From assembly GCF_014652535.1 (NCBI RefSeq), contig NZ_BMYZ01000001.1, positions 1,798,001-1,862,000 on the forward strand: a stretch of 64,000 nt of DNA, written 5' to 3'. Shown here in pieces: positions 25,614 through 59,239 of the stretch. Every line of letters begins with the position of its first letter. The stretch's first letter is position 1. The position numbers and the translations under genes are program-made. Source of the stretch: Cellvibrio zantedeschiae. Lineage in GTDB: Bacteria > Pseudomonadota > Gammaproteobacteria > Pseudomonadales > Cellvibrionaceae. The notes under the pieces are model-generated. The model was given only the letters and a program-made list of their open reading frames with translations. It had not been told where the DNA came from and did no database searches.

Positions 25614-26008
25614 GATAAATACCTCTCGATGAATTTTGAAAACAGATTAGAGTGCTAAGCACTCATTTAAATCTAAGCATCCTTATTTATTTCTTTCAAT
25701 AGATTTTTAGAGCAATTTGCAATTACTTTATATTTTTCTAATGCTTAATTTAGTTGAAAAAACTATTACAACATTATTATGCAAATTAATATTAATTATT
25801 AAATTTTAATCGCTCATTTCTGTATTTTTGAATTATTAATATCAATTTTTAATGGCAGGAAAAATTATAAGTAATGTGGGGCATGGTGCGCTAACACACT
25901 GATAATTGTATTTTACTTATTCATTATTAGAGCCATGGTGCGCTATTAGCGTTCCAGTTACTCATCACAATTACTATTTTTTAGCTAATCATCAAAGAGG
26001 TAACAACA
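25614..26008. other. AT-rich divergent intergenic region with two operator-like sites
   Basis: 395 bp between the KGG protein gene (minus) and the DUF4142 gene (plus). It is strongly AT-rich and has no ORF of note. It contains two related sites at 25885-25899 and 25937-25951, both preceded by CATG, close to the DUF4142 start. Confidence 0.5.
25886..25899. promoter_or_regulatory. Operator-like inverted repeat GTGCG-CTAA-CACAC
   Basis: An exact match to the consensus GTRYG-N4-CRYAC found before several stress-type genes in the window. It lies 109 bp upstream of the DUF4142 start. A second, half-conserved copy (GTGCG then CTAT) lies at 25938-25951. Confidence 0.55.
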
Positions 26009-26524
26009 ATGAAAATGACGAAACTTTTTTTAACCAGCGCATTTCTATTTAGCCTTGGCGCCCTATGCAACACCGCAATGGCAAAAGACACTATTGAGCC
26101 AGCAAAATTTGTAGACGAAGCTTCTGCCGGAGGCGTTGCCGAAATTGAAACAAGTAAACTTGCTTTGCAAAAATCGACCTCACCAGCGGTGAAAACTTTT
26201 GCACAAGAGATGATTAACGACCACACCGCAGCAAATAAAGAGCTGTCAGCCATTGCTGCCAAGAAAAACTTGAAGGTTTCAACCGAAGCCGAATTGGCTA
26301 ACAAAGCTAAAGCGCTGATTCTTAAACAACGTGATGGTGAATCTTTTGACGAAGCCTATGCAAAAAACCAGGTAAAAGCGCACAAAGATACAATCGAGCT
26401 TTTCAACAAAGCTGCGGTGTCACCTGATGTTGAGCTTGCCAGTTTTGCAGTAGCAACTTTGCCTAAATTAGAACACCACCTCCACTCTGCCGAAGCTCTG
26501 GCAAAAACCTACGAAAAGAAATAA
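26009..26524 (+). CDS. DUF4142 family exported protein
   Basis: A 171-residue protein with a signal peptide ending near AMA-KD (residue 25). The DUF4142 pattern is clear: FVDEASAGGVAEIETSKLALQKS, VKTFAQEMINDHTAANKEL and HKDTIELFNKA. The fold is a ferritin-like helical bundle in related structures, by family knowledge. Members are common near osmotic or oxidative stress genes; the biochemical role is not known. It is preceded by two operator-like repeats and shares its intergenic region with the KGG protein. Twenty bases after its stop the next gene's first possible frame begins. Confidence 0.9.
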   Translation: MKMTKLFLTSAFLFSLGALCNTAMAKDTIEPAKFVDEASAGGVAEIETSKLALQKSTSPAVKTFAQEMINDHTAANKELSAIAAKKNLKVSTEAELANKAKALILKQRDGESFDEAYAKNQVKAHKDTIELFNKAAVSPDVELASFAVATLPKLEHHLHSAEALAKTYEKK

Positions 26525-26591
26525 GCCATATGCTGTAACAATGCAGGCCCCGTCTGCATTGTTACAACAACTCAAATTAGAGATCACTTCC

Positions 26592-26963
26592 ATGCCACAA
26601 GGTAGTAAAGCCAAATACACCGAAGCCCAGAAGAAAAAAGCTGAGCATATTGAACAGAGTTATGAGCAAAAAGGTGTATCGGAAAAGCGCGCCGAGTCCA
26701 TTGCTTGGGCAACAGTTAACAAACAATCTGGTGGCGGGGAAAAATCCGGATCTGGAAAAACAAAGCCTGAAAGCCAAAAGGCCGCGGCGAGAAAAGACTC
26801 TGCACAAAAAGCTGCCTCAACAAAACATAAAAAATTAGAATCCGGGTCGCTTGAGTCGAATACAAAGCAAGAATTGCTCGCTAAAGCTCGCTCAAAAAAC
26901 ATTCCAAATCGCTCATCCATGAATAAAACAGAATTAATTCTCGCATTGCGTAAACCATCCTAA
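26592..26963 (+). CDS. Basic protein with a Rho_N/SAP-like C-terminal domain
   Basis: A 123-residue protein. I chose the ATG at 26592 (MPQGSKAKYTEAQ), because homologues I recall begin that way; the longer frame adds 17 residues with no support. The N-terminal part (SYEQKGVSEKRAESIAWATVNKQSGGG) is a motif seen in small proteins often labelled plasmid-stabilisation-like. A Lys/Ala/Ser-rich linker follows, then TKQELLAKARSKNIPNRSSMNKTELILALRK, which resembles the Rho N-terminal/SAP-type nucleic-acid binding helices. It is probably a cytoplasmic nucleic-acid binding stress protein. It follows the DUF4142 gene on the same strand. Confidence 0.65.
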   Translation: MPQGSKAKYTEAQKKKAEHIEQSYEQKGVSEKRAESIAWATVNKQSGGGEKSGSGKTKPESQKAAARKDSAQKAASTKHKKLESGSLESNTKQELLAKARSKNIPNRSSMNKTELILALRKPS

Positions 26964-27024
26964 AACTAAACTTCAAGTACACGCTACATTGCTCCCTCTC
27001 CCCGGTTCCCCCAGAACAACTTAT

Positions 27025-27038
27025 GTGCGTTTCCATAC
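27025..27038. promoter_or_regulatory. Operator-like inverted repeat GTGCG-TTTC-CATAC
   Basis: An exact match to GTRYG-N4-CRYAC, 73 bp upstream of the MscS-type channel gene. The central four bases differ from most other copies. Confidence 0.4.
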
Positions 27039-27111
27039 AGAGCCTATCTTGCCTGAATGTTATTAATACATTCGTATCTATGTCGATTCGCTGTAGCTGG
27101 GGAAGCCTAAA

Positions 27112-28218
27112 ATGCCCGATTGGAATGATTATCTGCCGGAATTAAAATTACTATTAACCGCACTCATCGTGGTAGTAATTCTAAAAATACTGGCGCCCTG
27201 GTTGACACGTTTGATCACACGCATAGCGGCACCTTTTTCTTTTGCGCGCGACATATTGGAACGTATTAAACCGCCCATCCATTTGTTAATTCCATTGTTA
27301 GGTTTGCGCGCGGTATTAGGCTCTGCACCGAACGATTTATCTTTTATTGATCAAGCGAGACATTTCACCACTCTAGCAATAATCGCCACTTTCACTTGGC
27401 TTGGAATAAGGATAATAGGAGCGGCACAGGACATTATTATTCAACGCCACCCTGTGGATGTGATTGATAACCTTGCAGCTCGGCGCGTGCAAACGCAGAC
27501 CAAAGTGTTAGTGCAAACCCTGGGATTTTTTGTGTTGCTATTTGGTATTTCGGCAATGTTAATGACCTTCCCTGGCGCCCGACAATTTGGTACCAGCTTG
27601 TTAGCATCTGCGGGTTTAGCTGGTTTAGCAGTCGGCTTCGCAGCAAAACCCGTGCTCGGAAATTTGATTGCAGGCCTGCAGCTGGCATTTACCCAGCCAA
27701 TTCGTTTAGATGATGTGGTTATTGTTGAAAATGAATGGGGACGGGTTGAAGAAATTACGGGCACTTATGTGGTTATCCGTATTTGGGATGACCGCCGTTT
27801 GATTGTGCCTTTGCAATATTTTATTGAAAACCCTTTCCAAAACTGGACGCGCAAAACATCAAACCTCATCGGTTCGCTTTTCTTATGGGTCGACTACGCG
27901 ATGCCGCTAGCACCCTTGCGCAAAGAGCTCGAAAGCCTTTGCGCACAATCACCCGATTTATGGGATGGCAAAGTTTGCGTGTTGCAAGTTACCGAAGCTA
28001 CTGACAAAGCGATTCAGCTGAGAATTTTAGTTAGCACAAAAGATTCTTCCAGCAATTGGGATTTGCGTTGTTTTGTGCGTGAAAAATTAATTAATTTTAT
28101 AGCCTTGAACCATCCGGAATGCCTGCCCCAAGTGCGTGCCAATTTACATGAAGAAACACCCAAAGCGGCTCCTGTTGAACAACAGATTCGCGAGGCGGAA
28201 CACCAGCCGGCGGTTTAA
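27112..28218 (+). CDS. MscS-family mechanosensitive ion channel
   Basis: A 368-residue membrane protein. Several hydrophobic helices in residues 10-190 are followed by the MscS pore helix and cytoplasmic beta domain: SAGLAGLAVGFAAKPVLGNLIAGLQLAFTQPIRLDDVVIVENEWGRVEEITGTYVVIRIWDDRRLIVPLQYFIENPFQNWTR. In this family the channel opens when membrane tension rises and releases solutes on osmotic downshock. The size is that of the shorter MscS relatives. Placed between stress proteins and the glycogen/trehalose genes, it would protect cells that have accumulated trehalose on rewetting. The ATG has no strong ribosome site (GGGGAAG upstream). Confidence 0.9.
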   Translation: MPDWNDYLPELKLLLTALIVVVILKILAPWLTRLITRIAAPFSFARDILERIKPPIHLLIPLLGLRAVLGSAPNDLSFIDQARHFTTLAIIATFTWLGIRIIGAAQDIIIQRHPVDVIDNLAARRVQTQTKVLVQTLGFFVLLFGISAMLMTFPGARQFGTSLLASAGLAGLAVGFAAKPVLGNLIAGLQLAFTQPIRLDDVVIVENEWGRVEEITGTYVVIRIWDDRRLIVPLQYFIENPFQNWTRKTSNLIGSLFLWVDYAMPLAPLRKELESLCAQSPDLWDGKVCVLQVTEATDKAIQLRILVSTKDSSSNWDLRCFVREKLINFIALNHPECLPQVRANLHEETPKAAPVEQQIREAEHQPAV

Positions 28219-28417
28219 CGACCTGCATTTAACTAGCGGATTATTTATAAAATACATTCTTGCAAAAAATGAGTGAAAGAAAAGGCGATAGAAATAGGAA
28301 ACTTATGCACTAGCAGTTAGTCACCAGTTAAACGCTTCATTTTCGAACACTGCAAGTTGCTTGATTTTTTATCATCATTGCCAAACTTATTGGCGCTATC
28401 AGCATTATGGAGTTGTT

Positions 28418-29992
28418 ATGCATAGCCCTCTTAATCGAGCACATTCTAGCCCTGTGAACCCCACAGTTCATTCGCAGAGGCGCATGCTGGAATCTCATGC
28501 TGCTCATACAGATACCAATCGTCGCAGTCGCCGCAATATTTTATTTGTTACCTCGGAGCACGCCGATTTAATTAAAGTCGGTGGATTGGGTGATGTATCC
28601 AGCGCTTTGCCGAAGGCCCTGTTAGCTTTCCACGATATACGCGTTTTAATCCCGGGCTATTTTAGTGTTCTCAACAGCGATCATCGAATAGATATCATTG
28701 CTCACCTACCCGCTTACGCAAATTTGCCTGAGTGCGATTTAGGATGCATGCAGATAAAAAATGGCCCGATTATTTATGTGTTGATATGCCCCGAACTTTA
28801 TGAGCGGGAGGGAAACCCCTACAGCAATACCGATGGCCAGGACTGGAGCGATAATCATATTCGATTTGCGCGACTTGGATTAGCGGCTGCACAAATTGCG
28901 CAGATGGGAAATAAACTTGATTGGTCACCGCACATTATCCACGCCAACGATTGGCCTGCAGCGCTTGCCCCTGCTTATATAAAATGGCAAGGCATAAATA
29001 TCCCCAGTGTTTTTACCGTTCATAATCTTGCGCACCAGGGTTTATTTTCGCCCGACTGTTTACCAGCTTTGGGTTTGCCTTTAGATGTTTTCACCATTGA
29101 GGGAATGGAGTTTCACGGCAAAATATCTTTTCTAAAAGCAGGCCTCGTTTACGCGAGCCATATAACTACCGTTAGCCAAACATACGCACGCGAAATTACC
29201 ACGCCTGAACACGGATGCGGTCTTGATGGATTATTAAAAACAAAATTCAACCAGGGTTTATTAAGCGGCATTATCAACGGCATTGATGAAAGCTGGGAGC
29301 CACTTTCAGATCCGCATTTGGTAGAAGGTTTTGGCGCGCGCCAATGGAGCCGCAAGCTCGCCAACACTCGCCACGTTGAAAAACTGTTTGGTTTGCACCA
29401 TAGCAACGGACCTTTATTTGCAGTGGTGTCGCGCTTGGCACATCAAAAAGGTTTGGATCTCACATTGGGCGTTGTAAAAACAATTGTGCGTGCCGGTGGC
29501 CGATTGGTCGTTATGGGTACCGGAGAGTCTCGCCTGGAAGCTGAGCTGGAACGTCTCGCTCGCCAGCATCCCCAGCAAATTGGAGTGCACATTGGTTTTA
29601 ATGAAGCCGAAGCGCGAAGAATTTTTGCTGGCAGTGATTTTCTTTTAATGCCTTCGCGTTTTGAACCTTGCGGATTAAGCCAAATGTATGCGCAAAGTTT
29701 TGGCTCACTGCCTATTGCTCACCGCACCGGCGGTTTAGTAGATACGATTGAAGACGGTGTGACGGGATTTTTATTTCGTGGTGCCAATATAGAAAGTTAT
29801 CGCAACGCAGTGCAACGTGCACTTTATGTTTTTAAACATCCTAATCTTTTATCTGCAATGCGTTGTCGCGCCATGGCGTCCCCACCTTTTTGGCAAGACT
29901 CTGTGCAACCTTACGATAATCTTTATCGAAGCTTGTTGAAAAAGAGTGAGAACGGAAAGGTTATTTTTGGAAACTGGAGGGCGCCCGCATGA
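28418..29992 (+). CDS. glgA: Glycogen synthase (GT5)
   Basis: A 524-residue enzyme that transfers glucose from ADP-glucose to the growing alpha-1,4-glucan. The ATG at 28418, with GGAG 5 bp upstream, is preferred over an upstream TTG. The N-terminal 40 residues are variable; the core starts at ILFVTSEHADLIKVGGLGDV, where KVGGLGDV is the ADP-glucose lysine-loop motif. Later marks are HANDWPAALAP, VFTVHNLAHQG and SRFEPCGLSQMYAQ with TGGLVDT near the end. The gene overlaps treZ by 4 bp (ATGA), showing translational coupling. It feeds glucan to TreY/TreZ and GlgX downstream. Confidence 0.95.
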   Translation: MHSPLNRAHSSPVNPTVHSQRRMLESHAAHTDTNRRSRRNILFVTSEHADLIKVGGLGDVSSALPKALLAFHDIRVLIPGYFSVLNSDHRIDIIAHLPAYANLPECDLGCMQIKNGPIIYVLICPELYEREGNPYSNTDGQDWSDNHIRFARLGLAAAQIAQMGNKLDWSPHIIHANDWPAALAPAYIKWQGINIPSVFTVHNLAHQGLFSPDCLPALGLPLDVFTIEGMEFHGKISFLKAGLVYASHITTVSQTYAREITTPEHGCGLDGLLKTKFNQGLLSGIINGIDESWEPLSDPHLVEGFGARQWSRKLANTRHVEKLFGLHHSNGPLFAVVSRLAHQKGLDLTLGVVKTIVRAGGRLVVMGTGESRLEAELERLARQHPQQIGVHIGFNEAEARRIFAGSDFLLMPSRFEPCGLSQMYAQSFGSLPIAHRTGGLVDTIEDGVTGFLFRGANIESYRNAVQRALYVFKHPNLLSAMRCRAMASPPFWQDSVQPYDNLYRSLLKKSENGKVIFGNWRAPA

Positions 29993-31830
29993 CCCAACAT
30001 CAGGGTGCATTTTTAAACCAACATCATGGTGCATTTTTAAACAAGGATGGCACTACACATTTTGCGCTGTGGGCACCAGACGCACGCACGGTAGCGCTTG
30101 AGTTGGGCAAGGGGGATTTGGTTCATAACTTATATAAAGACCATGATGGTTGGTATAAAGCCACAATTGAATGCGCAGCAGGAACTGCATACCGCTATTT
30201 GATCAATAATGAATTACATGTTCCCGATCCAGCTGCACGCCGCCAATTGGATGATGTGCACGGTTGGAGCTGTGTTGTTGATCAAGCCTATCCCTGGAAA
30301 ACGGTGACTTGGCACGGCCGCCCGTGGCACGAGGCAATTATTTATGAATTGCACGTTGGCGCTTTGGGCGGTTTTAGTAAAGTTGAAGAAATGTTACCTA
30401 CGCTGGCCGAGCTAGGTATTACCGCCATTGAACTTATGCCGCTTAACGAATTTCCTGGCGAACGCAATTGGGGCTATGACGGCGTGCTCTTATTTGCGCC
30501 CGAATCTTCTTACGGAACGCCAGAACAACTTAAAAGTTTGATTGATAGCGCGCATGCCTTAGACATGATGGTCATTGTGGATGTTGTGTATAACCACTTC
30601 GGCCCCGATGGAAATTATCTCGGTCAATATGCCAAACATTTTTTTCGCACCGATATAAAAACCGGCTGGGGCGATGCGATTGATTTTCGCCAACAGCCAG
30701 TGCGTGATTTTTTTATTGAAAATGCGCTCATGTGGATTCTTGATTACCGTGTTGATGGATTACGCATTGACGCAGCACATGCCATTAAAGACAAAAATTT
30801 TCTGTTGGAACTTTCAGAACGTGTGCGCGGTGCAGTGTTACCGAGCCGCCACGTACACTTAGTTTTGGAAAATGAAGACAATGCCGCAAGTTTGCTGACA
30901 AACGGTTTTGATGCCCAATGGAATGATGACGGCCATAATGTTTTGCATCACCTGCTCACTAACGAGCATGAAGGCTATTACGCTGATTTTGCAGATTCGC
31001 CCACAACAAAACTGGCGCGCTGTTTGAGCGAAGGATTTATTTACCAGGGCGAGTACACGCCCCGTGGTCGCTTGCGTGGCGAAATAAGTAAAGACCTACC
31101 ACCGACAGCATTTGTATTGTTTTTGCAAAATCACGACCAGGTTGGCAATCGCGCTTTTGGTGAGCGTTTAATTCAATTGGCAGATCCGGATGCGCTGAAA
31201 GCAGCCGTTGGTCTATTACTACTCTGCCCTATGATTCCGCTGCTATTTATGGGTGAAGAATGGGGCTGCAAAAAACCATTTTTATTTTTTACCGATCATC
31301 ACGACGACTTAGCGAAAGCGGTGTGTGAAGGTAGGCGCAAAGAGTTTGAAAGCTTCGCAAAATTTAATGATCCCGAAATGCGCGAAAAAATTCCCAACCC
31401 CAACGAGCTGGCTACTTTTACCCAATCGATTCCTGAGCAACACGATGAAGAAGAACACAGCGAATGGCGCGAGTTTTATAAAGGTTTGATTGCATTGCGC
31501 CACACCGAAATTATTCCGCGCTTGAAAGGAGCAAAGAGTGCGGGCGTTAACATTCTTGAAGACCGTGCGTTGGTTGCATCCTGGATGATGGGTGATGGCC
31601 AGCTACTCAGAATTTATATCAACCTATCCATTTTTCCGGTTCACGTTACACCTTCGTGGAACAAAGCGCGTTTAATTTTTAGTCACCAGGTATTAAGCGC
31701 GGAATATGCACAGGGAATTCTTACACCCGGCAGTATTTTGGTTTGTATCGAAGAAGATGCAAGAGCCACTGAAGAGGACATTACAATAGAGAGTTTGGAG
31801 GAACCCGCATTTGCGTTGGCAACCAGTTGA
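29989..31830 (+). CDS. treZ: Malto-oligosyltrehalose trehalohydrolase
   Basis: A 613-residue GH13 enzyme that releases trehalose from the malto-oligosyltrehalose made by TreY. The CBM48-like N-terminal domain is followed by the (beta/alpha)8 barrel with IYELHVGALGGFS, LMPLNEFPGERNWGYDGV, nucleophile Asp261 in DGLRIDAAHAI, acid/base Glu294 in LVLENED and the third acid in QNHDQVGNRAFGERL. The very start carries two tandem copies of an 8-residue repeat, HQGAFLNQ/HHGAFLNK, with matching 24-bp DNA repeats, so the true start could lie at either copy. Start overlaps glgA by 4 bp. Unusually, the order glgA-treZ-treY lacks the malQ that sits there in Pseudomonas. Confidence 0.95.
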   Translation: MTQHQGAFLNQHHGAFLNKDGTTHFALWAPDARTVALELGKGDLVHNLYKDHDGWYKATIECAAGTAYRYLINNELHVPDPAARRQLDDVHGWSCVVDQAYPWKTVTWHGRPWHEAIIYELHVGALGGFSKVEEMLPTLAELGITAIELMPLNEFPGERNWGYDGVLLFAPESSYGTPEQLKSLIDSAHALDMMVIVDVVYNHFGPDGNYLGQYAKHFFRTDIKTGWGDAIDFRQQPVRDFFIENALMWILDYRVDGLRIDAAHAIKDKNFLLELSERVRGAVLPSRHVHLVLENEDNAASLLTNGFDAQWNDDGHNVLHHLLTNEHEGYYADFADSPTTKLARCLSEGFIYQGEYTPRGRLRGEISKDLPPTAFVLFLQNHDQVGNRAFGERLIQLADPDALKAAVGLLLLCPMIPLLFMGEEWGCKKPFLFFTDHHDDLAKAVCEGRRKEFESFAKFNDPEMREKIPNPNELATFTQSIPEQHDEEEHSEWREFYKGLIALRHTEIIPRLKGAKSAGVNILEDRALVASWMMGDGQLLRIYINLSIFPVHVTPSWNKARLIFSHQVLSAEYAQGILTPGSILVCIEEDARATEEDITIESLEEPAFALATS

Positions 31831-31840
31831 ACGTGATTCA

Positions 31841-31873
31841 TGGCGCGTGAGCAACATGTTTGCTCACGCGCCA
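31841..31873 (+). terminator. Stem-loop between treZ and treY, possible attenuator
   Basis: A 14-bp perfect stem (TGGCGCGTGAGCAA and its complement) with a 5-nt loop CATGT lies 10 bp after the treZ stop. No T run follows, so it may be a partial terminator, RNA-stability element or processing site. Confidence 0.5.
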
Positions 31874-31967
31874 ATCACTGAATGAGTGTTCGTTAACCCA
31901 CAGACCTTAGGCGCCTAATTTGAGACAAAGAACTCATGTATAACGGTTTGTTCGAGAGCAAAACACT

Positions 31968-34871
31968 ATGCCTGAAGTTCGCGCCACAGTGCGTTTGCAA
32001 TTCCATCGCGGTTTCACCCTAAACGATGCTATTCCACTAGTTCCTTACTTCAATAAGTTGGGCATTAGCCATATCTATTCGTCACCCGTACTTAAAGCTC
32101 GCAGCGGTTCTGTGCATGGTTATGATGTTGTCGACCCCACCTGTATAAATCCTGAAATTGGCGGTGAAAGCGCGCTTGTCAGTTTGGTTGCAGAGCTTCG
32201 CAAATACGACATGGGATTGATTGTAGATATTGTCTCCAATCATATGGCCGTGAGTAACGACAACCCCTGGTGGCAAGATGTTTTGTGCTGGGGCTTGCAC
32301 AGCCCTTACGCAAATTTTTTTGATATCCAATGGAACTCCCCCGACCCTTTACTCAAAGGTCAATTACTTCTTCCGGTATTAGGTAGCGGTTACGGCGAAA
32401 CACTTGCAGCCAATGAAATAAGTCTGCAATTTAATCAAGCCGAAGGAAAATTTTACGCGCAATACTTTGACAATTTGTTCCCACTCACGCCAACAAGTTA
32501 TGGCCATATTCTTGGCAAAACCAATATCGATAGCCTGCGTCTTTTGGGGCAAGCTTTTGATGATTTGGAAAACCGCGAAAATGCGTGGGAAGTCGCCAAA
32601 GAGTTGCAAGCAGATTTGCGCGATCTTGCCGAAAAAGCCGAAGTCATTCCAGCAATTACGCAAGCCATAAGTTTTTACAACGTGGCTTTAGGAAAAGAAT
32701 CTGCACTGCGGGATATGCAACGTCAAACTGCTAATGATGATCTCGACGTTATAGAAGAACCAGATCCGCAAGACAACGACAACTTTCAGCGTTTACACCA
32801 GTTGCTTGAGCTCCAGCATTATCGCTTGGCAAGCTGGCGCACCGCTGCCGATGATATTAACTGGCGGCGCTTTTTTGATGTGAACGAACTCGCCGGTTTA
32901 AGAGTAGAACGCCCCGACGTTTTTGAAGCGAGTCATCGCAAAATTTTTGAATTAATCGAACAGGGGCTGATTGATGGCATACGCATAGATCACATTGATG
33001 GCTTGGCCAACCCGCGTGCTTATTGCCGCAAATTGCGTCGCCGTGTTGATCGTTTGGCGGCCTTGCGCCCGCGCGAATTAGCGCAAAAACATTTTCCCAT
33101 TTATGTTGAAAAAATCCTTGGTGAAGGTGAACACCTGGCTACCCAATGGATGGTAGACGGAACTACCGGTTATGAATTTATGAACCAGGTTTCGCTGTTA
33201 CAACATGATCCGCTTGGTGAATTACAACTCTTTGATTTATGGAGCACCACTACCGGCCGCATGGGTACTTTTAAAGATGAAGCGCGTGAAGCGCGGCGTC
33301 TTGTACTCGCTAGCAGTTTGGCTGGTGATCTTGAAACCGTTGCACAGGGCTTATTGCTGATTGCACGCACCGACATTACGACCCGCGATTTAACCCTGGG
33401 GGCAATCAGGCGCGCACTGACAGAGCTCATCGTCAACTTCACGGTGTACAGAACCTATGCAGGAGCTTGCGGCAGAACGGGAGATGATGAGCACTTTTTT
33501 AAAGAAGCTCTCGCTGGCGCACGCCTTACTTTGGCAGAAGCTGATTGGCCACTGCTGGATCAACTTGATCGTTGGCTGGGAGGTGAAGCACTTGCAAAAC
33601 TTCCCCCCGGCGAAACGCGCAACCTGCGTCAAACAGTACTGACGCGTTTCCAGCAGCTCACCTCGCCCGCTGCTGCAAAAGCAATAGAAGACACTGCCTG
33701 CTATCGATCTGCGGTTTTGCTGTCGCGCAACGATGTTGGCTTTAATCCCCATTGCTTTAGTGCATCCATAACTCAGTTCCATGAACAAATTGCCGAGCGC
33801 AACACACGCTTTCCACGCAACTTGCTGGCAACGGCTACCCATGACCACAAACGCGGTGAAGATACCCGCGCCCGTCTTGCGGTTATCAGTGAACGCTCAG
33901 CCTGGTTTGCAGAACGAGCCCAGCGTTGGCGCTCCATGTCCGCACCACTGCGTAAAGAATTGGAAGATGGCACCGCGCCCTCGGCGGGCGATGAACTGAT
34001 TCTTTATCAAACCCTATTAGGCTGCTGGCCGCTGGAATTTACAGCGGACGCCAAGCCCGATGTTCAGGTCTATCTCGACCGATTGATGTGTTGGCAAGAA
34101 AAATCCGTCCGCGAAGCAAAATTGCGTAGCACCTGGAGTGCACCAAACGCGGCCTATGAACGCGCGACCCAGGAATTTCTTATGCGCTTATTAAACTCTG
34201 AAGAAGGCGCGCCTATACGCGCCGAAATTGCACATGCAGCTCAGCTCATCGCACCAGCCGGTGCATTGAACAGCCTTAGCCAAACCCTATTACGTATGAC
34301 TGTTCCCGGCATTCCCGACCTCTACCAGGGCGCAGACTTCTGGGATTTCAGCCTGGTGGACCCTGATAACCGTCGTCCCGTGGACTTTGGCGCGCGTATT
34401 GCAGCTTTGGAAACCAAGGCCACCGCCCACGAATTGATTGAGCACTGGCAGGATGGCCACATTAAGCAATGGTTGATTGCACGAACATTAGCGGCGCGCG
34501 CCCGTCATTCCGAGCTGTTTCGCGACGGGGATTACCAACCGCTCACCATTGAAGGTGAGCAAGCGGACAAGGTGGTTGCCTTTATGCGTCGATACCTTAA
34601 CGACTATGCGGTCGTCATAGTGCCCCGCCTTACCGCAAGCCTGCTAGCAGATAGCACAGTTCCACATATTCCTGTAACAGCCTGGGGCGATACTCAAATC
34701 CTGTTACCCGCTGCACTCAAAGACGCCGATTTCGAAGGCCAACTGGATGCAAGCCGAATTAAAGCCAAGGCAAACGCGCTCACCCTGCGCGATGCTTTGG
34801 CAACAACTCCCGTTAACTTTTTATTTTTCTCCGTTACGCACTCACAGGAGCTCCACCATGAACATAAATGA
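31968..34871 (+). CDS. treY: Malto-oligosyltrehalose synthase
   Basis: A 967-residue GH13 enzyme that turns the reducing end of maltodextrin into a trehalose unit by an intramolecular transglycosylation. Family marks: RLQFHRGFTLNDA, HIYSSPVLKARSGSVHGYDV near the N-terminus, VSNHMA, then GIRIDHIDGLANP (catalytic Asp), YVEKILGEGE (catalytic Glu) and ATHDHKRGEDTRAR near residue 625. The length is typical of TreY, which has a large inserted helical part. It lies 137 bp after treZ, past a stem-loop, and its last 14 bases overlap the DUF2934 gene. Together with TreZ it forms the TreY/TreZ route from glycogen to trehalose. Confidence 0.95.
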   Translation: MPEVRATVRLQFHRGFTLNDAIPLVPYFNKLGISHIYSSPVLKARSGSVHGYDVVDPTCINPEIGGESALVSLVAELRKYDMGLIVDIVSNHMAVSNDNPWWQDVLCWGLHSPYANFFDIQWNSPDPLLKGQLLLPVLGSGYGETLAANEISLQFNQAEGKFYAQYFDNLFPLTPTSYGHILGKTNIDSLRLLGQAFDDLENRENAWEVAKELQADLRDLAEKAEVIPAITQAISFYNVALGKESALRDMQRQTANDDLDVIEEPDPQDNDNFQRLHQLLELQHYRLASWRTAADDINWRRFFDVNELAGLRVERPDVFEASHRKIFELIEQGLIDGIRIDHIDGLANPRAYCRKLRRRVDRLAALRPRELAQKHFPIYVEKILGEGEHLATQWMVDGTTGYEFMNQVSLLQHDPLGELQLFDLWSTTTGRMGTFKDEAREARRLVLASSLAGDLETVAQGLLLIARTDITTRDLTLGAIRRALTELIVNFTVYRTYAGACGRTGDDEHFFKEALAGARLTLAEADWPLLDQLDRWLGGEALAKLPPGETRNLRQTVLTRFQQLTSPAAAKAIEDTACYRSAVLLSRNDVGFNPHCFSASITQFHEQIAERNTRFPRNLLATATHDHKRGEDTRARLAVISERSAWFAERAQRWRSMSAPLRKELEDGTAPSAGDELILYQTLLGCWPLEFTADAKPDVQVYLDRLMCWQEKSVREAKLRSTWSAPNAAYERATQEFLMRLLNSEEGAPIRAEIAHAAQLIAPAGALNSLSQTLLRMTVPGIPDLYQGADFWDFSLVDPDNRRPVDFGARIAALETKATAHELIEHWQDGHIKQWLIARTLAARARHSELFRDGDYQPLTIEGEQADKVVAFMRRYLNDYAVVIVPRLTASLLADSTVPHIPVTAWGDTQILLPAALKDADFEGQLDASRIKAKANALTLRDALATTPVNFLFFSVTHSQELHHEHK

Positions 34872-35304
34872 ACAACAAGTCCGTGAATTCGCCTACCAGA
34901 TCTGGGAATCTGAGGGTCGTCCTGTTGGACATTCCGAGCGTCACTGGGAAATGGCCAGCAAGTTGGTCGAGGCGCACAATGAAGAACATTTTCACGTGCA
35001 ATCCCAAGGCGATACTGACACCCCAGCTAACGAGCCTGTGGAGCCTATATCACCCGGCCAGCCACAACAGCAACCTGTGTCAGACCCTATCCAACCAGGT
35101 GAACCACCGCAACAACCTGCTCAACCTATAGCGGTAGCACCCCCCAGAAAATCCCGTGCGAAAGCGGCAGCGGATGTGCCAGCCAAATCCTTAATTGACA
35201 CTAAACCTATAGCGCTTGGCACACCTGCAGACGAAACCACAACCAAGCCGTCGGCTAAGAAGCCGGCTAAACCACGAAAATCAAAAACTGTAGAAAATGC
35301 TTAA
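34858..35304 (+). CDS. DUF2934 domain protein with Pro/Gln- and Lys-rich tail
   Basis: A 148-residue protein starting at the ATG at 34858, with CAGGAG 6 bp upstream. It overlaps treY by 14 bp. The first 40 residues (QQVREFAYQIWESEGRPVGHSERHWEMASKL) are the DUF2934 domain, a short helical motif seen in many glycogen/trehalose clusters. The rest is low complexity: repeated Gln-Pro-Pro segments, then Lys/Ala/Pro with RKSRAKAAADVPAKS. The role of DUF2934 is not known; its place inside the treY-glgX unit suggests a helper or regulator of the enzymes. Confidence 0.85.
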   Translation: MNINEQQVREFAYQIWESEGRPVGHSERHWEMASKLVEAHNEEHFHVQSQGDTDTPANEPVEPISPGQPQQQPVSDPIQPGEPPQQPAQPIAVAPPRKSRAKAAADVPAKSLIDTKPIALGTPADETTTKPSAKKPAKPRKSKTVENA

Positions 35305-35346
35305 GGGCTCTCGCCCAAGATTTTTGCAGTAGTTGGGAGATCGAGT

Positions 35347-37521
35347 ATGACCAAAAATCAGGAACATCCCGATATTAAAAATTGTACAAGGATTACCGAA
35401 GGACACCCATTTCCCTTGGGTGCAACATGGGATGGCCAAGGCGTAAACTTTGCCATTTTCTCCGCCCATGCCACCAAAGTCGAACTCTGCCTTTTTGATA
35501 GCGAAGGAAAGCAAGAGCTTGAACGTATCGAGCTTCCGGAATTTTCGGATGAAATATGGCACGGCTACTTGCCCGATATGCAAGCTGGCCAGGTATACGG
35601 ATATCGAGTTTATGGCCCCTACGACCCCGCTGCGGGGCATCGCTTTAATCACAACAAACTATTGATTGACCCCTACGCAAAACAATTGGTGGGTGAACTT
35701 ATTTGGGACGAAGCCTTATTCGGCTACACCATTGGGCATCCTGATGGCGACCTGAGTTTTGATGAGCGCGATAGCGCACCCTTCGTCCCAAAAGCAAAAG
35801 TCATTGATCCAGCGTTTGACTGGCAGGGCAAAAACAGCCATCGCGCGCCTTGGGATAAAACCATCATTTACGAAACCCACGTGCGCGGCATCAGCATGCG
35901 CCATCCGTCGGTTCCAGAAAAGTTGCGCGGGTCTTTCGCTGGCCTCGCCACCAGGGAGCTGCTGGATCACATTAAAGAACTAGGCATCTCCAGTGTTGAG
36001 CTGCTGCCGGTCCACGCGTTCGTACACGATAACCATTTACTGGAAAAAGGCCTTAAGAATTATTGGGGCTACAACAGCATTGCATTTTTGGCACCCCATG
36101 CCGAATACCTCAGTAGTGGCAACCTCAATGAATTTAAAGAGATGGCTGCCAGCCTGCATGATGCCGGGCTGGAGCTGATTCTCGACGTGGTTTACAACCA
36201 CACTGCCGAGGGCAACGAGCTGGGGCCAACCTTGTCTTTGCGCGGCATAGACAACGCAACTTATTATCGCCTCGTTCCAGACAACAACCGCTATTACATC
36301 AACGATTCTGGTACGGGCAACACACTTGACCTTACGCATCCTTGCGTCCTGCGTTTAGTCACAGATTCGCTGCGCTATTGGACTACCGAAATGGGAGTGG
36401 ATGGGTTCCGTTTTGATTTGGGCACCATACTCGCGCGCGATGAGCGCAACGGCTTTAACGAGCGTCACGGATTCCACGTTACCTGCAGGCAAGACCCAAC
36501 GCTCAGTCAACTTAAATTAATTGCAGAGCCTTGGGATTGCGGACCTGGCGGCTATCAAGTCGGTGCTTTCCCACCGGGCTGGTTCGAATGGAACGATCGC
36601 TTCCGCGATACAGTGCGGGCCTTTTGGCGTGGCGATCAAGGCAAACTGCCTGAATTAGCAAGTCGCATTACCGCATCCGGCGATTTGTTTAATTGGGGCG
36701 GTCGTCGGCCTTTTGCCTCGGTAAATTTTATTACCGCACATGATGGTTTTACCCTGCGTGATTTGGTCAGCTACAACAACAAACACAACGAAGCCAATGG
36801 CGACGAAAATCGCGATGGAACAGACAATAACCTTTCCTACAACTACGGCATTGAAGGCCCTACGGATGATCCGGAAATTAAAGCCCTTCGCTCTCGCCAA
36901 ATTCGCAACTTGTTGAGCACCCTACTCTTGTCACAAGGCACACCCATGTTGGTGGCTGGCGATGAATTTGGACACAGCCAACAAGGCAACAACAACGTCT
37001 ATTGCCAGGACAGCGAATTAAGTTGGCTGGATTGGAATTTAGACGAAGAAGCTAAAAGCCTGCTGGAATTTACTCGCAAACTTATTCAACTGCGCCACAC
37101 CTACCCCATATTGCGTCGCGGTCGTTTCCTGGTGGGCAATTACAACGAGGAAATAGGAGTAAAAGATGTAACTTGGCTCCACCCCACAGGCGTAGAAATG
37201 ACCGATGAAAGTTGGGGGCAAAATGATTTAGCCTGCCTTGGTTTAATCATGGATGGCCGCGCTCAACCAACCGGCATTCATCGCCAGGGCAGCGACGCAA
37301 CTTTGTTGTTAATTTTGAATGCACAGGCGGAGGCTGTTAATTTCACATTGCCCGAAGTTGCGCAAGGTACTGGCTGGATAAATTTGTTGGACACCAATCT
37401 CGCCGCTGAGACACCTAATAAGTCATTTATATTTTGTGAAGACTTTATTGTTACACCGCGTTCAGTACTGTTATTTGAATTGAAAAAGAAAGATGCATCC
37501 GAAATAAGCAGTGCTGAATAA
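35347..37521 (+). CDS. glgX: Glycogen debranching enzyme, isoamylase type
   Basis: A 724-residue GH13 enzyme that hydrolyses alpha-1,6 branches of glycogen. Marks: TEGHPFPLGATWDGQGVNFAIFSAHATKVELCLFD (CBM48 domain), the barrel from about residue 170, nucleophile Asp in GVDGFRFDLGT, acid/base Glu in LIAEPWDCGPGGYQVG, and the third Asp in FITAHDGFTLRDLVSYN. GGGAG lies 8 bp before the ATG. It releases linear maltodextrin that TreY and TreZ turn into trehalose. It is the last gene of the glgA-treZ-treY-DUF2934-glgX unit and ends at a strong bidirectional terminator. Confidence 0.95.
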   Translation: MTKNQEHPDIKNCTRITEGHPFPLGATWDGQGVNFAIFSAHATKVELCLFDSEGKQELERIELPEFSDEIWHGYLPDMQAGQVYGYRVYGPYDPAAGHRFNHNKLLIDPYAKQLVGELIWDEALFGYTIGHPDGDLSFDERDSAPFVPKAKVIDPAFDWQGKNSHRAPWDKTIIYETHVRGISMRHPSVPEKLRGSFAGLATRELLDHIKELGISSVELLPVHAFVHDNHLLEKGLKNYWGYNSIAFLAPHAEYLSSGNLNEFKEMAASLHDAGLELILDVVYNHTAEGNELGPTLSLRGIDNATYYRLVPDNNRYYINDSGTGNTLDLTHPCVLRLVTDSLRYWTTEMGVDGFRFDLGTILARDERNGFNERHGFHVTCRQDPTLSQLKLIAEPWDCGPGGYQVGAFPPGWFEWNDRFRDTVRAFWRGDQGKLPELASRITASGDLFNWGGRRPFASVNFITAHDGFTLRDLVSYNNKHNEANGDENRDGTDNNLSYNYGIEGPTDDPEIKALRSRQIRNLLSTLLLSQGTPMLVAGDEFGHSQQGNNNVYCQDSELSWLDWNLDEEAKSLLEFTRKLIQLRHTYPILRRGRFLVGNYNEEIGVKDVTWLHPTGVEMTDESWGQNDLACLGLIMDGRAQPTGIHRQGSDATLLLILNAQAEAVNFTLPEVAQGTGWINLLDTNLAAETPNKSFIFCEDFIVTPRSVLLFELKKKDASEISSAE

Positions 37522-37587: not shown

Positions 37588-37809
37588 TTAAGCAGACTTT
37601 TTACCGGTAGCCAGCAGTAAACCACCAACTACCAAACCTGCAACGCCAGCCCATACAGGAACGTTTACACGTTCCTTGTCTTTCACTTCCATATGCAAAG
37701 GACCAAGGTCAGCCTCATGTGTTTCTTTAGTGTAGGTAAAGCCACCATAAGCAAGACCTAAACCACCTAATACGATTAATAAAATTCCGATAATTTTTTG
37801 GATACCCAT
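37588..37809 (-). CDS. DUF3185 family small membrane protein
   Basis: A 73-residue protein with two membrane helices (about residues 5-23 and 52-68) separated by a polar loop. The N-terminus MGIQKIIGILLIVLGGLGLAYGG and the VPVWAGVAGLVVGGLLL second helix fit DUF3185, a family near stress genes. AGAGGG precedes the ATG. Inner-membrane location expected. It is the last of a run of small minus-strand genes, 18 bp inside the terminator. Confidence 0.8.
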   Translation of the reverse strand: MGIQKIIGILLIVLGGLGLAYGGFTYTKETHEADLGPLHMEVKDKERVNVPVWAGVAGLVVGGLLLATGKKSA

Positions 37810-38212: not shown

Positions 38213-38336
38213 CGCATTCTCCTGACTCAATAAAATCTTCGGACAAGTTATTTTAACTTTGCACTTGAGTTAATCTTAATCAACCCAAGGTGAATTTCTG
38301 TGCGTTAGCCAACTTAAATGCCACAAGCAAATAAGA

Positions 38337-47310: not shown

Positions 47311-48156
47311 ATGAAGCTAACTGAGCAAGATATTCTCAACGCCAGCATTTTAATCGTTGATGATCAGCAAGCGAACGTAGCGCTGCTGGAACAATTGCTA
47401 AGCGAGGCGGGTTACACCAATGTCTCGTCAACCATGAATCCAGTGGAAGTGGGTGCTTTGCATCGCAAGAATTACTACGATCTTATTCTGCTGGATTTGC
47501 AAATGCCGGAGATGGACGGCTTCCAGGTTATGGAATGCCTTAAAACCAATGACCAGGAAGGCTATCTGCCGGTTATTGTTTTAACGGCGCAACCTGGCCA
47601 TAAATTGCGTGCATTGCAAGCGGGCGCTAAAGATTTTATTAGCAAGCCATTTGATTTAATAGAAGTCAAAACGCGCATTCACAACATGTTGGAAGTTCGC
47701 CTGCTGTACAAAAAGCTGGAGAACTACAACAAAATTCTTGAGCAAACCGTTGCCGAGCGCACCGCTGAATTACGCGAAAGCGAAGCGCGTTTCCGCAGCC
47801 TTACTGAGCTCGCTTCCGATTGGTATTGGGAACAAGATCAGGACGGAAAATTTATTAAAGTCTCCGGCCCCGTATTAGAAATGCTTGGCATTCAAGTTGA
47901 TCCGCTATTGGGAGACGCAGCGACAGCCAACACCTTAGACAACGCCGGATGGAACGAAGACGAGCGCAAAGAATTGCAAGGCATTATTGAAGCGCGTCAA
48001 CCCTTTATTGATTTTGCATTCAGCCGCGTTGACTCTACCGGCATCAAACATCATTACCGCGTAAGCGGTGAACCTATGTTCGATTTGTCCAGTCGTTTCA
48101 TTGGATACCGCGGTATTGGTATTCAATGCAAAGAAATGCCTGGCAGCAACCAATAG
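47311..48156 (+). CDS. Response regulator with receiver and PAS domains
   Basis: A 281-residue protein: a receiver domain (ILIVDDQQANVALLEQLLSEAGY, Asp62 in LILLDLQMPEMDGF, Lys in KDFISKPFD), a coiled linker (TVAERTAELRESEARFRSL) and a PAS-type domain (LASDWYWEQDQDGKFIKVSG). It lacks a DNA-binding or enzymatic output domain, so it likely acts by binding other proteins. It starts 11 bp after the kinase gene and ends 8 bp before the Crp-like gene, so the three form an operon. Confidence 0.88.
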   Translation: MKLTEQDILNASILIVDDQQANVALLEQLLSEAGYTNVSSTMNPVEVGALHRKNYYDLILLDLQMPEMDGFQVMECLKTNDQEGYLPVIVLTAQPGHKLRALQAGAKDFISKPFDLIEVKTRIHNMLEVRLLYKKLENYNKILEQTVAERTAELRESEARFRSLTELASDWYWEQDQDGKFIKVSGPVLEMLGIQVDPLLGDAATANTLDNAGWNEDERKELQGIIEARQPFIDFAFSRVDSTGIKHHYRVSGEPMFDLSSRFIGYRGIGIQCKEMPGSNQ

Positions 48157-48164
48157 GGATAACG

Positions 48165-48878
48165 ATGCAAACAATTCATAGTCCATTGCAAAATCATCTT
48201 CTCGCCGCACTCAGTAAACCGGAAATTGATCGTTTAACTGCGCGCCTTGAACTGGTGCAGTTGAAGTTGGGCGAAAGTATTTATGAACCGGGCCAACCCT
48301 TAAGCTATGCGTATTTTCCAACCACCAGCATTATTTCGCTGCAATACGTTATGGAATCCGGCGCATCTGCAGAAGCGGCAGGCGTAGGTAACGAAGGGAT
48401 GGTAGGCGTTGCGCTATTCCTGGGTGGCAATACCACGCCAAGTGCAGCTGTAGTGCAAACGGCGGGTTATGCGTATCGCCTGGAGCGCAGCATTTTAAAA
48501 GCTGAGTTTAATTGTGCAGATGTAATGCACCGCTTACTGTTGCGCTATACGCAGGCGCTAATGACGCAAATGTTCCAAACTGCTGTGTGCAATCGTCATC
48601 ACTCCGTTGAACAACAATTGTGTCGCTGGCTATTAAACACAGTTGATCGCATTCCCACGGGTGAGTTGGTTATGACACAAGAATTAGTCGCCAACATGCT
48701 CGGTGTGCGCCGCGAAAGTGTTACAGAAGCCGCAGGTAGTTTGCAAAGCGCAGATTGCATTCGCTACAGACGTGGTCATATCGCCGTGTTAGACAGACGC
48801 AAGTTAGAAGCGCGTACTTGTGAGTGCTATCAGGTCGTTAAAAAAGAATTGGATCGACTAATGACGAATGTAAAATAA
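48165..48878 (+). CDS. Crp/Fnr-type transcriptional regulator
   Basis: A 237-residue protein. The ATG at 48165 has ATAGGGAT about 8 bp upstream; a frame extending further up lies inside the previous gene. The N-terminal cNMP-binding fold is seen at ELVQLKLGESIYEPGQPLSYAYFPTTSIISL, and the C-terminal winged helix at LVMTQELVANMLGVRRESVTEAAGSLQ. It has no Fnr-type N-terminal Cys cluster. As it follows a sensor kinase and response regulator, it could be the transcription output of that module; this is inference. Confidence 0.85.
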   Translation: MQTIHSPLQNHLLAALSKPEIDRLTARLELVQLKLGESIYEPGQPLSYAYFPTTSIISLQYVMESGASAEAAGVGNEGMVGVALFLGGNTTPSAAVVQTAGYAYRLERSILKAEFNCADVMHRLLLRYTQALMTQMFQTAVCNRHHSVEQQLCRWLLNTVDRIPTGELVMTQELVANMLGVRRESVTEAAGSLQSADCIRYRRGHIAVLDRRKLEARTCECYQVVKKELDRLMTNVK

Positions 48879-49248: not shown

Positions 49249-49395
49249 TTATAGTCTTCGCCCCTGTATGATTCTCACCAGAATCACGACTACTGCAGCA
49301 ACCAATAACACATGGATTAAACCGCCGATAGTGTATGAGGACACTAGACCCAATACCCATAAAATAAGCAGAATGACTGCAATAGTTTCTAACAT
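49249..49395 (-). CDS. Lmo0937-type small membrane protein
   Basis: A 48-residue protein, MLETIAVILLILWVLGLVSS... to ...ILVRIIQGRRL, matching the two-helix lmo0937 family of small membrane proteins. AGGAGA precedes the ATG. It is below the usual gene-finder size. An exact operator-like repeat lies 72 bp upstream. Inner-membrane stress protein; role unknown. Confidence 0.8.
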   Translation of the reverse strand: MLETIAVILLILWVLGLVSSYTIGGLIHVLLVAAVVVILVRIIQGRRL

Positions 49396-49467
49396 GATAA
49401 TTCTCCTATTAAGTTAACCAGCAATAAAGCCACATGAATAGATTAAAAAATCACCCTGTTAAACTCG

Positions 49468-49481
49468 GTGCGCTAACGTAC
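49468..49481. promoter_or_regulatory. Operator-like inverted repeat GTGCG-CTAA-CGTAC
   Basis: The most symmetric match to GTRYG-N4-CRYAC, inside GGTGCG-CTAA-CGTACC. It lies 72 bp upstream of the lmo0937-type gene. Confidence 0.6.
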
Positions 49482-49537
49482 CTTGATTTTAAAAGACTTT
49501 ATAAATTTGCTAATCACATCTCATTTTTTAACCCCCA

Positions 49538-50527: not shown

Positions 50528-50938
50528 TCAGGAATGGCGCTTTCTTAAAAAGGCTGCCACTTGTTTGTCAGCCTCCGCGCGCGAAATCGCATAGCGTTCT
50601 TGAACCAAGCCTGACAAGCGCTCAATTTGCCCCTGGCTTTTTAAGAGGTCGTCTTCAGTTAAGCGCCCTCTTACCATCTTGGCTTTTTCAATTTGCTCCT
50701 GCCAAATTGCCTTCACTTGGCTGTCACTTGGTAAGGAATGCTCACGTAAAGGTGCATCCAAATCCCCCTCCCGGCGCGCTTGTTCAAGTTCTTCCGGAGT
50801 TTGTTCGCTCAACTGAACTGAACGCTTATCGTGCAAAATACTTTGCATACGTCGCGTCACCTGGCTTCTTTTAGGCGAGGAATGTCGATCCATGGGTTGA
50901 TGGGTATTCGTTAAACCAAACTCATGACTTCTGTTCAT
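50528..50938 (-). CDS. CsbD-like stress protein with N-terminal extension
   Basis: A 136-residue protein. The C-terminal 60 residues (IWQEQIEKAKMVRGRLTEDDLLKSQGQIERLSGLVQERYAISRAEADKQVAAFL) resemble the CsbD domain, with the WGKLTDDDL-like stretch here reading RGRLTEDDL. The N-terminal 70 residues are basic and polar and look disordered. CsbD proteins are general-stress proteins of unknown mechanism. GGAGG precedes the ATG. A site 105 bp upstream (GTACG-GTGC-CGAAC, 51044-51057) matches the operator-like repeat with one change. Confidence 0.75.
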   Translation of the reverse strand: MNRSHEFGLTNTHQPMDRHSSPKRSQVTRRMQSILHDKRSVQLSEQTPEELEQARREGDLDAPLREHSLPSDSQVKAIWQEQIEKAKMVRGRLTEDDLLKSQGQIERLSGLVQERYAISRAEADKQVAAFLRKRHS

Positions 50939-51157
50939 ATTGACCTCCGAGTTAATAAAGACCCTTCAACCACTCTGAACGGAATGCGGTGGACGTAATA
51001 CAAGGGATGACCCTTACACTAATAGTGAACGCCTACCCAATCTGTACGGTGCCGAACGCGATTGCTGCGGACCAACAATGAACAAAGCGCCCACTTCCCG
51101 CGGCAAACGAGCTACAAATGCCAAAAATAGCCTTGCCACCCCTGAATAATGCGCGCG

Positions 51158-55866: not shown

Positions 55867-55878
55867 TCGGTCAATCAT

Positions 55879-58052: not shown

Positions 58053-58077
58053 ATAAATGTGATCAGCCTGTGACTGA

Positions 58078-58150
58078 CTCATCAAGACTAAAACGGACGT
58101 CCCGTCCGTTTTACCCTATTTCCTTGCGATGCTCGGGAAATTCACATGGG
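58078..58150 (-). repeat. Mosaic hairpin repeat, copy 6 (reverse orientation)
   Basis: Hairpin arms TAAAACGGAC and GTCCGTTTTA at 58089-58113 with loop GTCCC; the end TTCACATGGG is shared with copies 1 and 2. Confidence 0.85.
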
Positions 58151-58248
58151 AAATAGCAACATTGTGAGCACCACCTTGACATGGTGAGGGTCAAAACTAA
58201 TAAGGCATGAAGATTGAGCTGCGGGTACTCATAGCCGATAAATATTTG

Positions 58249-58515
58249 TGCTTGTGCTTTTAACATCCCTTACGAGTTCGCCGAGCACTGGAAGAAAATC
58301 GCCGGAAAACGGACACGACGTCCGTTTTAGTGACTACGCGGCAGGACGCCGCGTCGGAACGACGGCCATTTTCTGAAGCGCGCACGACTGCATGGATGCA
58401 GGAGGTAGAGCAACGCAGGAGCAGTTGCCGAGGAAACACGAACGAGTGGGTCGCCTTTCTTTTGGTTACTTTACTTTGGCGAAGCAAAGAAAAGTAACTC
58501 GCCAGCAGGCGAAAC
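58249..58515 (+). repeat. Mosaic hairpin repeat, copy 7 (forward orientation, longest)
   Basis: It matches copy 4 but has an extra module of about 47 bp at 58384-58430 with GCAAC-GCAGGAGCA-GTTGC (58410-58428). The module is also in copy 5 with a compensatory C-G to T-A change in the stem. It ends 26 bp before the HAD gene ATG. Confidence 0.88.
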
Positions 58516-58540
58516 CTACAAACAAACAAAACTAAATATC

Positions 58541-59167
58541 ATGAAATACAAACTCGCCATATTCGACTTCGATGGAACTCTTGCAGATTCCTTTCCATTT
58601 TTTGTAAGCGTATTTAACCAGCTTGCTGATGAATACGATTTTAAAAAGATTGATGCTGCTTCCGTAGATCAATATAGGCATTACAACGCCAAACAAATGA
58701 TGGAAATTGTTGGCTTGCCGAAGTGGAAGCTGCCAATGGTGGGGAAACGCTTTATGTCCTTGATGAAAGACAACGCAAACTCCATTCAATTATTTGACGG
58801 CATTAGTGAAACCCTGGAATACCTTGTTGAACACCATGTTCTGGTAGCTGTTGTTTCGTCTAACTCTTATGAAAACCTTAGCCATATTCTCGGCGATAAG
58901 CTTTCACAGCTCGTTACGAGTTTTGATTGTGGTATGTCTATATTCGGCAAAGCCGCGCGCTTGGAAAAAGTACTCAAGCAAAATAAGCTTACAGCTTCTG
59001 ATGCTATTTATATTGGCGATCAAGTTACCGACCTTGAAGCCGCGCACAAAAAATCAATCGCTTTTGGTGCTGTGGCATGGGGTTATGCGTCAATCGAAAG
59101 TTTAGCGGCCCATAGCCCCGCAGAGATATTTCAAACACCCTACGACATAAAACGAATCGTAAATTAA
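58541..59167 (+). CDS. HAD-family phosphatase (phosphoglycolate phosphatase-like)
   Basis: A 208-residue HAD hydrolase. Motif I DFDGTLADS (Asp9, Asp11), motif II VVSSNS, motif III Lys in KAARLEKV region and motif IV YIGDQVTDLEAA. The cap domain (residues 15-85) is of the C1 type, as in Gph. It hydrolyses a phosphate ester or acts on a phosphonate; substrate not known. The start follows the repeat with only a weak ribosome site. Confidence 0.85.
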   Translation: MKYKLAIFDFDGTLADSFPFFVSVFNQLADEYDFKKIDAASVDQYRHYNAKQMMEIVGLPKWKLPMVGKRFMSLMKDNANSIQLFDGISETLEYLVEHHVLVAVVSSNSYENLSHILGDKLSQLVTSFDCGMSIFGKAARLEKVLKQNKLTASDAIYIGDQVTDLEAAHKKSIAFGAVAWGYASIESLAAHSPAEIFQTPYDIKRIVN

Positions 59168-59225
59168 CGCGCCCATCTCAACAAAAGTGATCCACATGAA
59201 TTATTTACGGTTGATCAAGGCCTGC

Positions 59226-59239
59226 GTGTGTTAGCGCAC
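59226..59239. promoter_or_regulatory. Operator-like inverted repeat GTGTG-TTAG-CGCAC
   Basis: An exact match to GTRYG-N4-CRYAC, 63 bp upstream of the metallopeptidase start. Confidence 0.55.

Follow-up and report, generated by a model that had tools for sequence, protein, structure and literature searches.

The 64 kb window analysed here (the whole stretch of Cellvibrio zantedeschiae DNA under study) carries a series of small genes of envelope and stress type, among them DUF4142, MscS-type, DUF883, BON lipoprotein, PRC-barrel, GSP17M-like, lmo0937-type, CsbD-like (its CsbD match lies below the Pfam cut-off) and YpfJ-type genes, together with a set of three co-oriented genes encoding a hybrid sensor kinase, a response regulator and a Crp-like protein. 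The coordinates of this gene set and of the predicted operators are collected in Table 1.

Table 1. Kinase–response regulator–crp gene set and predicted operators in the window. Numbers in brackets are the core positions listed in the first-pass annotation; scores are those of the 20 bp weight matrix described below; domains of the kinase and the response regulator are from Pfam.
Feature	Position	Strand	Context	Score	−10 hexamer	Remarks
Hybrid sensor histidine kinase	43442–47299	+	First gene of the kinase–response regulator–crp set			CHASE3 and several PAS domains
Response regulator	47311–48156	+	Same set			Receiver domain and weak PAS match
Crp/Fnr-family regulator, proposed operator binder	48126–48878	+	Same set			250 aa (start at 48165 equally possible); recognition helix MLGVRRESVTEAAGSLQ
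Predicted weak site	16968–16987	−	Before SDR gene 16009–16911 (−)	7.0	CATATT (candidate)	
Predicted operator (25886)	25883–25902	+	Before DUF4142 gene 26009–26524	10.8	CATTAT (candidate)	Exact core
Predicted operator (27025)	27022–27041	+	Before MscS-type gene 27112–28218	16.4	TATTAA (candidate, incomplete)	Exact core
Predicted weak site	31885–31904	+	63 bp before TreY-type gene 31968–34871 (TreY by NCBIfam)	8.9	No class II −10	
Predicted weaker operator	38297–38316	−	Before small ORF 38039–38230 (−)	11.4	AAGATT (candidate)	
Predicted weak site	38619–38638	−	Before 68 aa gene 38337–38543 (−)	8.1	TATTGT	
Predicted operator (38679)	38676–38695	+	Before DUF883 gene 38815–39171	23.1	TATTTT (candidate)	Exact core
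Predicted operator (39828)	39825–39844	−	Between BON lipoprotein gene (39420–39698 or 39734, −) and PRC-barrel gene	19.0	No class II −10 on either side	Exact core
Predicted second operator	39935–39954	+	Before PRC-barrel gene 40060–40479	15.0	TATAGT	One mismatch to loose motif
Predicted weaker site	40565–40584	+	Before 337 aa membrane-type gene 40632–41645	8.5	TATTCT	
Predicted operator (42947), weak	42944–42963	−	Between GSP17M-like gene (42383–42886) and kinase gene (43442)	7.6	No class II −10	Exact core
Predicted weak site	43129–43148	+	About 300 bp before the kinase–response regulator–crp genes	6.8	GATGAT (candidate)	
Predicted operator (49468)	49465–49484	−	Before lmo0937-type gene 49249–49395 (−)	20.9	TAATCT	Exact core
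Predicted operator	51041–51060	−	Before CsbD-like gene 50528–50938 (−)	11.2	TAGTGT	
Predicted operator (59226)	59223–59242	+	Before YpfJ-type zinc peptidase gene 59303–60187	9.2	TATAAT, one base nearer than usual	Exact core

The first-pass annotation had pointed to a 14 bp inverted repeat, GTRYG-N4-CRYAC, at seven places in front of such genes, and all seven exact matches are present where it placed them, including the pair 38679 and 39828, which is identical over all 14 bases as it had stated; a second identical pair is formed by 25886 and the reverse complement of 59226. An eighth exact match (20662) lies inside the gene for a 1096 aa protein, the other seven being intergenic. Since 100 dinucleotide shuffles of the window gave a mean of only 0.46 matches and a maximum of 3, the eight found are far above chance. 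With one mismatch allowed the same pattern comes near to noise in the window (20 matches versus 13.7 expected, with 8 of the 100 shuffles reaching 20). Across the whole genome the loose pattern occurs 42 times versus 39 for the pattern read backwards, and 17 of these matches are intergenic and 25 coding (by our own codon-based gene calls), so that it is insufficient on its own to identify a regulon and we reject it as a genome-wide predictor. In the genome scan that the first-pass annotation had suggested, the loose pattern alone does not rise above the background of coding matches; in the window 7 of 8 matches are intergenic, versus 10 of 34 outside it. These ten include sites at two further PRC-barrel paralogues, two sites at a DUF883-type gene with a DUF4398-like lipoprotein gene opposite, and sites at genes which, from the start of their sequences, we take to encode a KGG-type small protein, a YihY-like protein and a GlsB-like protein; three of them (L009, L021 and L028) have no stress-type neighbour of the same kinds. 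Among genomes of the family, the loose pattern set against its control gave no clear split by presence of the Crp-like protein, and a genus member that lacks the protein (G064) has 51 matches versus 42 in the control.

The operator itself was recovered blind around relatives of the Crp-like gene. We used 80 public loci, with Methylotenera and Methylovorus among their sources, plus 20 loci from members of the family; one duplicate (L065) was dropped, leaving 99 partly interrelated loci in which genes called by us were masked; 1024 five-base half-sites were scanned as inverted repeats with 13 gaps (0–12) over 334,527 bases. The top-ranked repeat was GTGCG-N4-CGCAC, with 55 occurrences versus 1.06 expected, in 40 of the 99 loci, and the next-ranked ones, TATGT-N10 (20 versus 0.22), TGTGC-N6, GTACG-N4 (13 versus 0.2) and TCTGT-N10, are the same element. 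The combined form GTRCG-N4-CGYAC was counted 113 times, in 61 of the 99 loci, with a single site in the reversed control; the strict site is absent between genes from the remaining 38. The 14 bp motif is the core of a 20 bp operator, TATGTRCG-CTAG-CGYACAGA. The logo of 189 oriented sites reads TATGTRCG-N4-CGYACAGA, an inverted repeat of about 20 bp whose symmetry axis and spacing are those of a CRP/FNR site (centre of N4 to N6).

A weight matrix for the 20 bp form was built from 100 distinct sites of loci L085–L164. At a score of at least 10 it gives 331 intergenic and 37 coding sites in the 99 loci, a ratio that is partly circular as the training sites are intergenic. The 19 family loci outside the training set have 50 such sites in 74 kb of intergenic DNA and 4 in 299 kb of coding DNA, versus 0 and 2 on reversal, and 15 of the 19 have at least one. 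Around crp the density of sites falls slightly, from 1.27 to 0.73 per kb over 10 kb. In the window, 16 intergenic (11.3 kb) and 6 coding (52.7 kb) sites score at least 3, versus 7 in total in the reversed window, and eight sites score at least 10, versus none on reversal. Of the partial sites proposed earlier, those at 38300, 51044 and 16971 are borne out by the matrix, and the one at 25938 (score below 3) is not. The site at 39935 was missing from the earlier list. The single weak sites 31885, 42944 and 25938 may be chance matches, and the one at 43129 possibly serves autoregulation of the kinase–response regulator–crp genes. The 20 bp form, unlike the loose 14 bp one, parts signal from noise in the own genome: with at most two mismatches it occurs 16 times versus 3 in the control, and the 15 of these sites that were examined comprise 11 intergenic and 4 coding ones. 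Genes at the intergenic sites include those for MscS, three PRC-barrel proteins, BON, DUF883, a DUF4398-like protein and a GSP26-like oxidase, besides others.

What might bind this operator? The earlier suggestion that a common dimeric regulator controls a stress regulon gains support from the conservation of the operator beside Crp-like relatives, its CRP/FNR spacing, the promoter layout described below and the similarity of targets, and the Crp-like protein, which had been named as a candidate, is strengthened in that role by the operator being kept beside its relatives in many species. Both of its domains score above the Pfam cut-offs (HTH_Crp_2, PF13545, 51.8 bits; cNMP_binding, PF00027, 29.8 bits), placing it in the CRP/FNR superfamily, and the top solved folds matched by its AlphaFold2 model (pLDDT 89.2) in Foldseek are MtbCRP, GlxR and FNR, at about 19% identity. 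It is, by Pfam, the sole product of the kinase–response regulator–crp set with a DNA-binding domain. The response regulator, a homologue of which immediately precedes crp in the same orientation in 46 of the 99 loci, was rejected as the DNA binder, no such domain having been found in it by Pfam. The recognition helix is conserved among relatives as GVRRE, with R195, R196, E197 and T200 invariant in 42 aligned relatives and likewise kept in more than 97% of 100 sequences. We take the counterpart positions in E. coli CRP to be R180, E181 and R185; the first two residues recur in the Crp-like protein, and E stands in place of the third. In the logo the outer G is fixed (99%), the next position is G in 60%, A in 19% and T in 19% of sites, and C-G follows; the conserved residues would fit a site with a fixed outer G, a loose next purine and then C-G. 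A single pattern-limited scan confirmed 357 relatives of the protein.

Presence of the protein was compared with presence of the operator in 370 genomes of the class, 48 with the Crp-like protein at E<1e-40 and 322 without. TGTRCG-N4-CGYACA has 107 sites versus 56 in the reversed control in the former and 116 versus 219 in the latter; since control counts are also higher with the protein, the two groups differ in size or G+C content, and their counts are fairly compared only as ratios to the control. At least two sites occur in 29 of the 48 genomes with the protein and in 19 of the 322 without it, and in 14.9 kb of intergenic DNA at the YpfJ loci of 20 genomes lacking it no site scores at least 10. 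Since the Crp-like protein is the only DNA-binding product of its set, has a CRP fold and a conserved helix, and is accompanied by a motif excess in the genomes that carry it, we consider it the likely regulator, and we suggest, judging from these sequence comparisons, that the sites are very probably operators of a CRP/FNR-family activator, most likely this protein. It has to be weighed whether the operator is bound by a different member of the CRP/FNR family in the same cell, with the Crp-like gene a mere neighbour or target. Such a reading would account for the frequent occurrence of sites before crp-type genes (38 of 62 operon heads) and could draw on the several copies or distant paralogues in many relatives' genomes, and on 13 loci of mostly more distant relatives (37–48% identity), of which six still have sites scoring at least 10 and seven have none. 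We nevertheless regard it as unlikely, considering that the motif excess tracks the Crp-like protein across the class and that the own genome holds only one relative at E≤0.001 (a search that did not cover unrelated CRP/FNR proteins). At the loci of 'GVRRV'-type paralogues (L245–L247) the operator is absent and another inverted repeat is common to all three, a sample too small to yield a recognition code.

The promoter layout bears on the mode of action. In 70 of the 186 unambiguous oriented sites a TAnnnT hexamer begins at +29 from the site axis, versus 1.96 on average and 10 at most for other offsets, and in the gene-oriented logo this hexamer is the sole other information within 40 bases after the site, with no −35 element visible between the two. 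Its centre lies 32 bp from the axis, which is the distance in class II CRP promoters, where the activator axis is near −41.5; here the layout is read from the DNA sequence. When this offset is read in the opposite direction, away from the gene, TAnnnT stands there 14 times versus a mean of 2.1 for that side, perhaps from unnoticed divergent promoters. Among 20 site orientations in the window, A at +30 and T at +34 occur together in 10 and the full TAnnnT in 6; of the sites first listed, 25886, 38679 and 49468 have this pair, and 39828 and 42947 have no −10 element at the class II offset. A dimeric repressor covering the −35 region could likewise block polymerase from such a position, and the lack of a −35 element between site and −10 in the logo can be put down to it; repressor sites are, however, usually variable in position, whereas the −10 element here stands at a base-pair-precise offset, and lacking a −35 element is a requirement of class II promoters that depend on an activator, making repression very unlikely. 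That the sites arose by chance, from a loose pattern meeting an A+T-rich intergenic bias, has in its favour the genome-wide parity of that pattern with its reversed control and the near-chance number of one-mismatch matches, but is refuted for the site set as a whole, and left with a negligible probability, by the control counts for the strict core (113 versus 1), the held-out intergenic DNA (50 versus 0) and the own genome (16 versus 3).

In other bacteria, too, the predicted targets are again small envelope and stress-type genes, as supported by the genes next to the sites (named by Pfam). Against a base rate of 293 of 1125 operon heads with a site within 350 bp in the 99 loci, the enriched heads are BON lipoproteins (16/17), OmpA-like proteins (10/13), DUF4398 (9/14), hybrid kinases (27/47), collagen-repeat proteins (6/7), ice-binding-like proteins (5/5), a small membrane family like that encoded at 37588–37809 of the window (5/6) and the crp-type genes mentioned above; DUF883 (2/12), CsbD (4/8, p 0.13) and response regulators (4/13) are not enriched. 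The best crp ORF per locus has a site within about 350 bp upstream in 27 of the 99. Conservation before orthologous genes, which the first-pass annotation had made a test of its proposal, was examined for two families. Of 13 copies of PRC-barrel orthologues in genomes that have the protein, 9 carry a site scoring at least 3 (6 of 13 at least 10), versus 0 of 4 in genomes without it; this comparison uses 17 of 34 matches, weak ones and one without a locus having been dropped, and of its four negatives only that from G001 is in the same genus, the other three being partial matches with uncertain starts. For YpfJ orthologues (30 of 38 matches, those with loci) a score of at least 3 is reached in 3 of the 10 genomes that have the protein and in 1 of the 20 that lack it.

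We suggest that the Crp-like protein would occupy TATGTRCG-N4-CGYACAGA as a dimer centred near −41.5, where it would stand in for a −35 element and recruit RNA polymerase in a class II manner. The result would be activation of small genes of envelope and stress type and probably, in many of the species, of its own gene and that of the neighbouring sensor kinase. We infer that the protein could itself be controlled by the kinase–response regulator pair or by a ligand of a sensor domain, and that the regulon would answer to stress. More tentatively, and at somewhat less than even probability, the beta- and gammaproteobacterial relatives may form an undescribed CRP/FNR subfamily that runs its own stress and envelope regulon in answer to a signal other than cAMP, perhaps redox or a metal sensed through the conserved C155, R157, H159 and C232-E-C234-Y, together with the partner hybrid kinase and the response regulator that lacks a DNA-binding domain. 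Many of the predicted targets belong to families without known function (DUF4142, DUF883, DUF4398, BON lipoproteins, lmo0937-type and GSP17M-like), and they would be joined in one regulon by a single operator for which a regulator is proposed and a promoter layout predicted. This would also show which DNA sequence a widespread CRP/FNR subfamily recognizes; openly available papers, searched by title and abstract opening, yielded no such specificity, nor anything on the operator or the protein group, and the passages of PMC3164672 consulted contain no Crp or Fnr.

Finally, considering known systems, one close likeness is to the E. coli CRP regulon as generally described, with a dyad in the same register (outer TGT...ACA), a dimeric winged-helix fold, an axis at about −41.5 and a −10 element 32 bp off; the inner bases are RCG here and GAT there. 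In CRP proteins the Glu and Arg that contact cAMP sit in the phosphate-binding cassette, and since the GEL and R positions of GlxR are replaced in the Crp-like protein (by profile alignment at 19–20% identity, in which one-residue shifts are possible), control by cAMP is doubtful. With regulators of the FNR, DNR and FixK type the protein has in common the fold and the N4 between half-sites, and DNR and Aliivibrio fischeri FNR are among its solved relatives, but the familiar FNR half-site TTGAT is unlike the operator here. FNR senses oxygen by a 4Fe-4S centre held by an N-terminal cysteine cluster; the translation of the Crp-like gene has no cysteine before residue 130, so that it lacks the Fe-S ligands that FNR has at its N-terminus. 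Cyanobacterial NtcA is a weak sequence relative whose usual site, GTA-N8-TAC, has the outer GTR in common with the operator; its gene content differs, and the NtcA equivalog TIGR03697 (NCBIfam) scores 22.3 bits versus a cut-off of 244.95. The gene kinds at the sites (CsbD, BON, GSP17M, GSP26-like and trehalose genes) resemble those commonly associated with the RpoS, SigB and PhyR-EcfG regulons. Those systems act through alternative sigma factors, whereas here a dyad operator stands in the layout of a CRP-type activator; if the more tentative subfamily reading is true, the regulon would be the CRP-type equivalent of these sigma-factor systems.

Residues C155, R157, H159 and C232-E-C234-Y of the Crp-like protein, the proposed operator binder, are kept in 42/42 aligned relatives, and a sensor role for them is possible. 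Near its GVRRV-type paralogs (GVRRV in place of GVRRE in the recognition helix), three genomes have in common a GTGTATTAGTGTAGTAATACAC-like inverted repeat, which may be the operator of the paralog or of another regulator.

The Ku-type gene, which adjoins an 897-aa gene, suggests that bacterial end joining is encoded within the same stress region. This region also includes a ribonucleotide reductase small-chain-type product with a long N-terminal extension. A small low-complexity protein has a signal-like start, and a weak putative operator precedes TreY in a run of glycogen-to-trehalose genes.

Positions of the features discussed (window coordinates unless a locus is named)
Feature	Position
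Ku-type DNA end-binding gene	23957-24913
Glycogen-to-trehalose run (starch-synthase-type, TreZ, TreY, isoamylase-type)	28361-37521
Weak putative operator before TreY	31885
Crp-like protein	48126-48878 (+)
Ribonucleotide reductase small-chain-type gene, 423 aa	51534-52805
Gly/Thr/Ser/Asn-rich small protein	60624-60947
GTGTATTAGTGTAGTAATACAC-like repeat, paralog loci in other genomes	L245:15313, L246:5243, L247:15387
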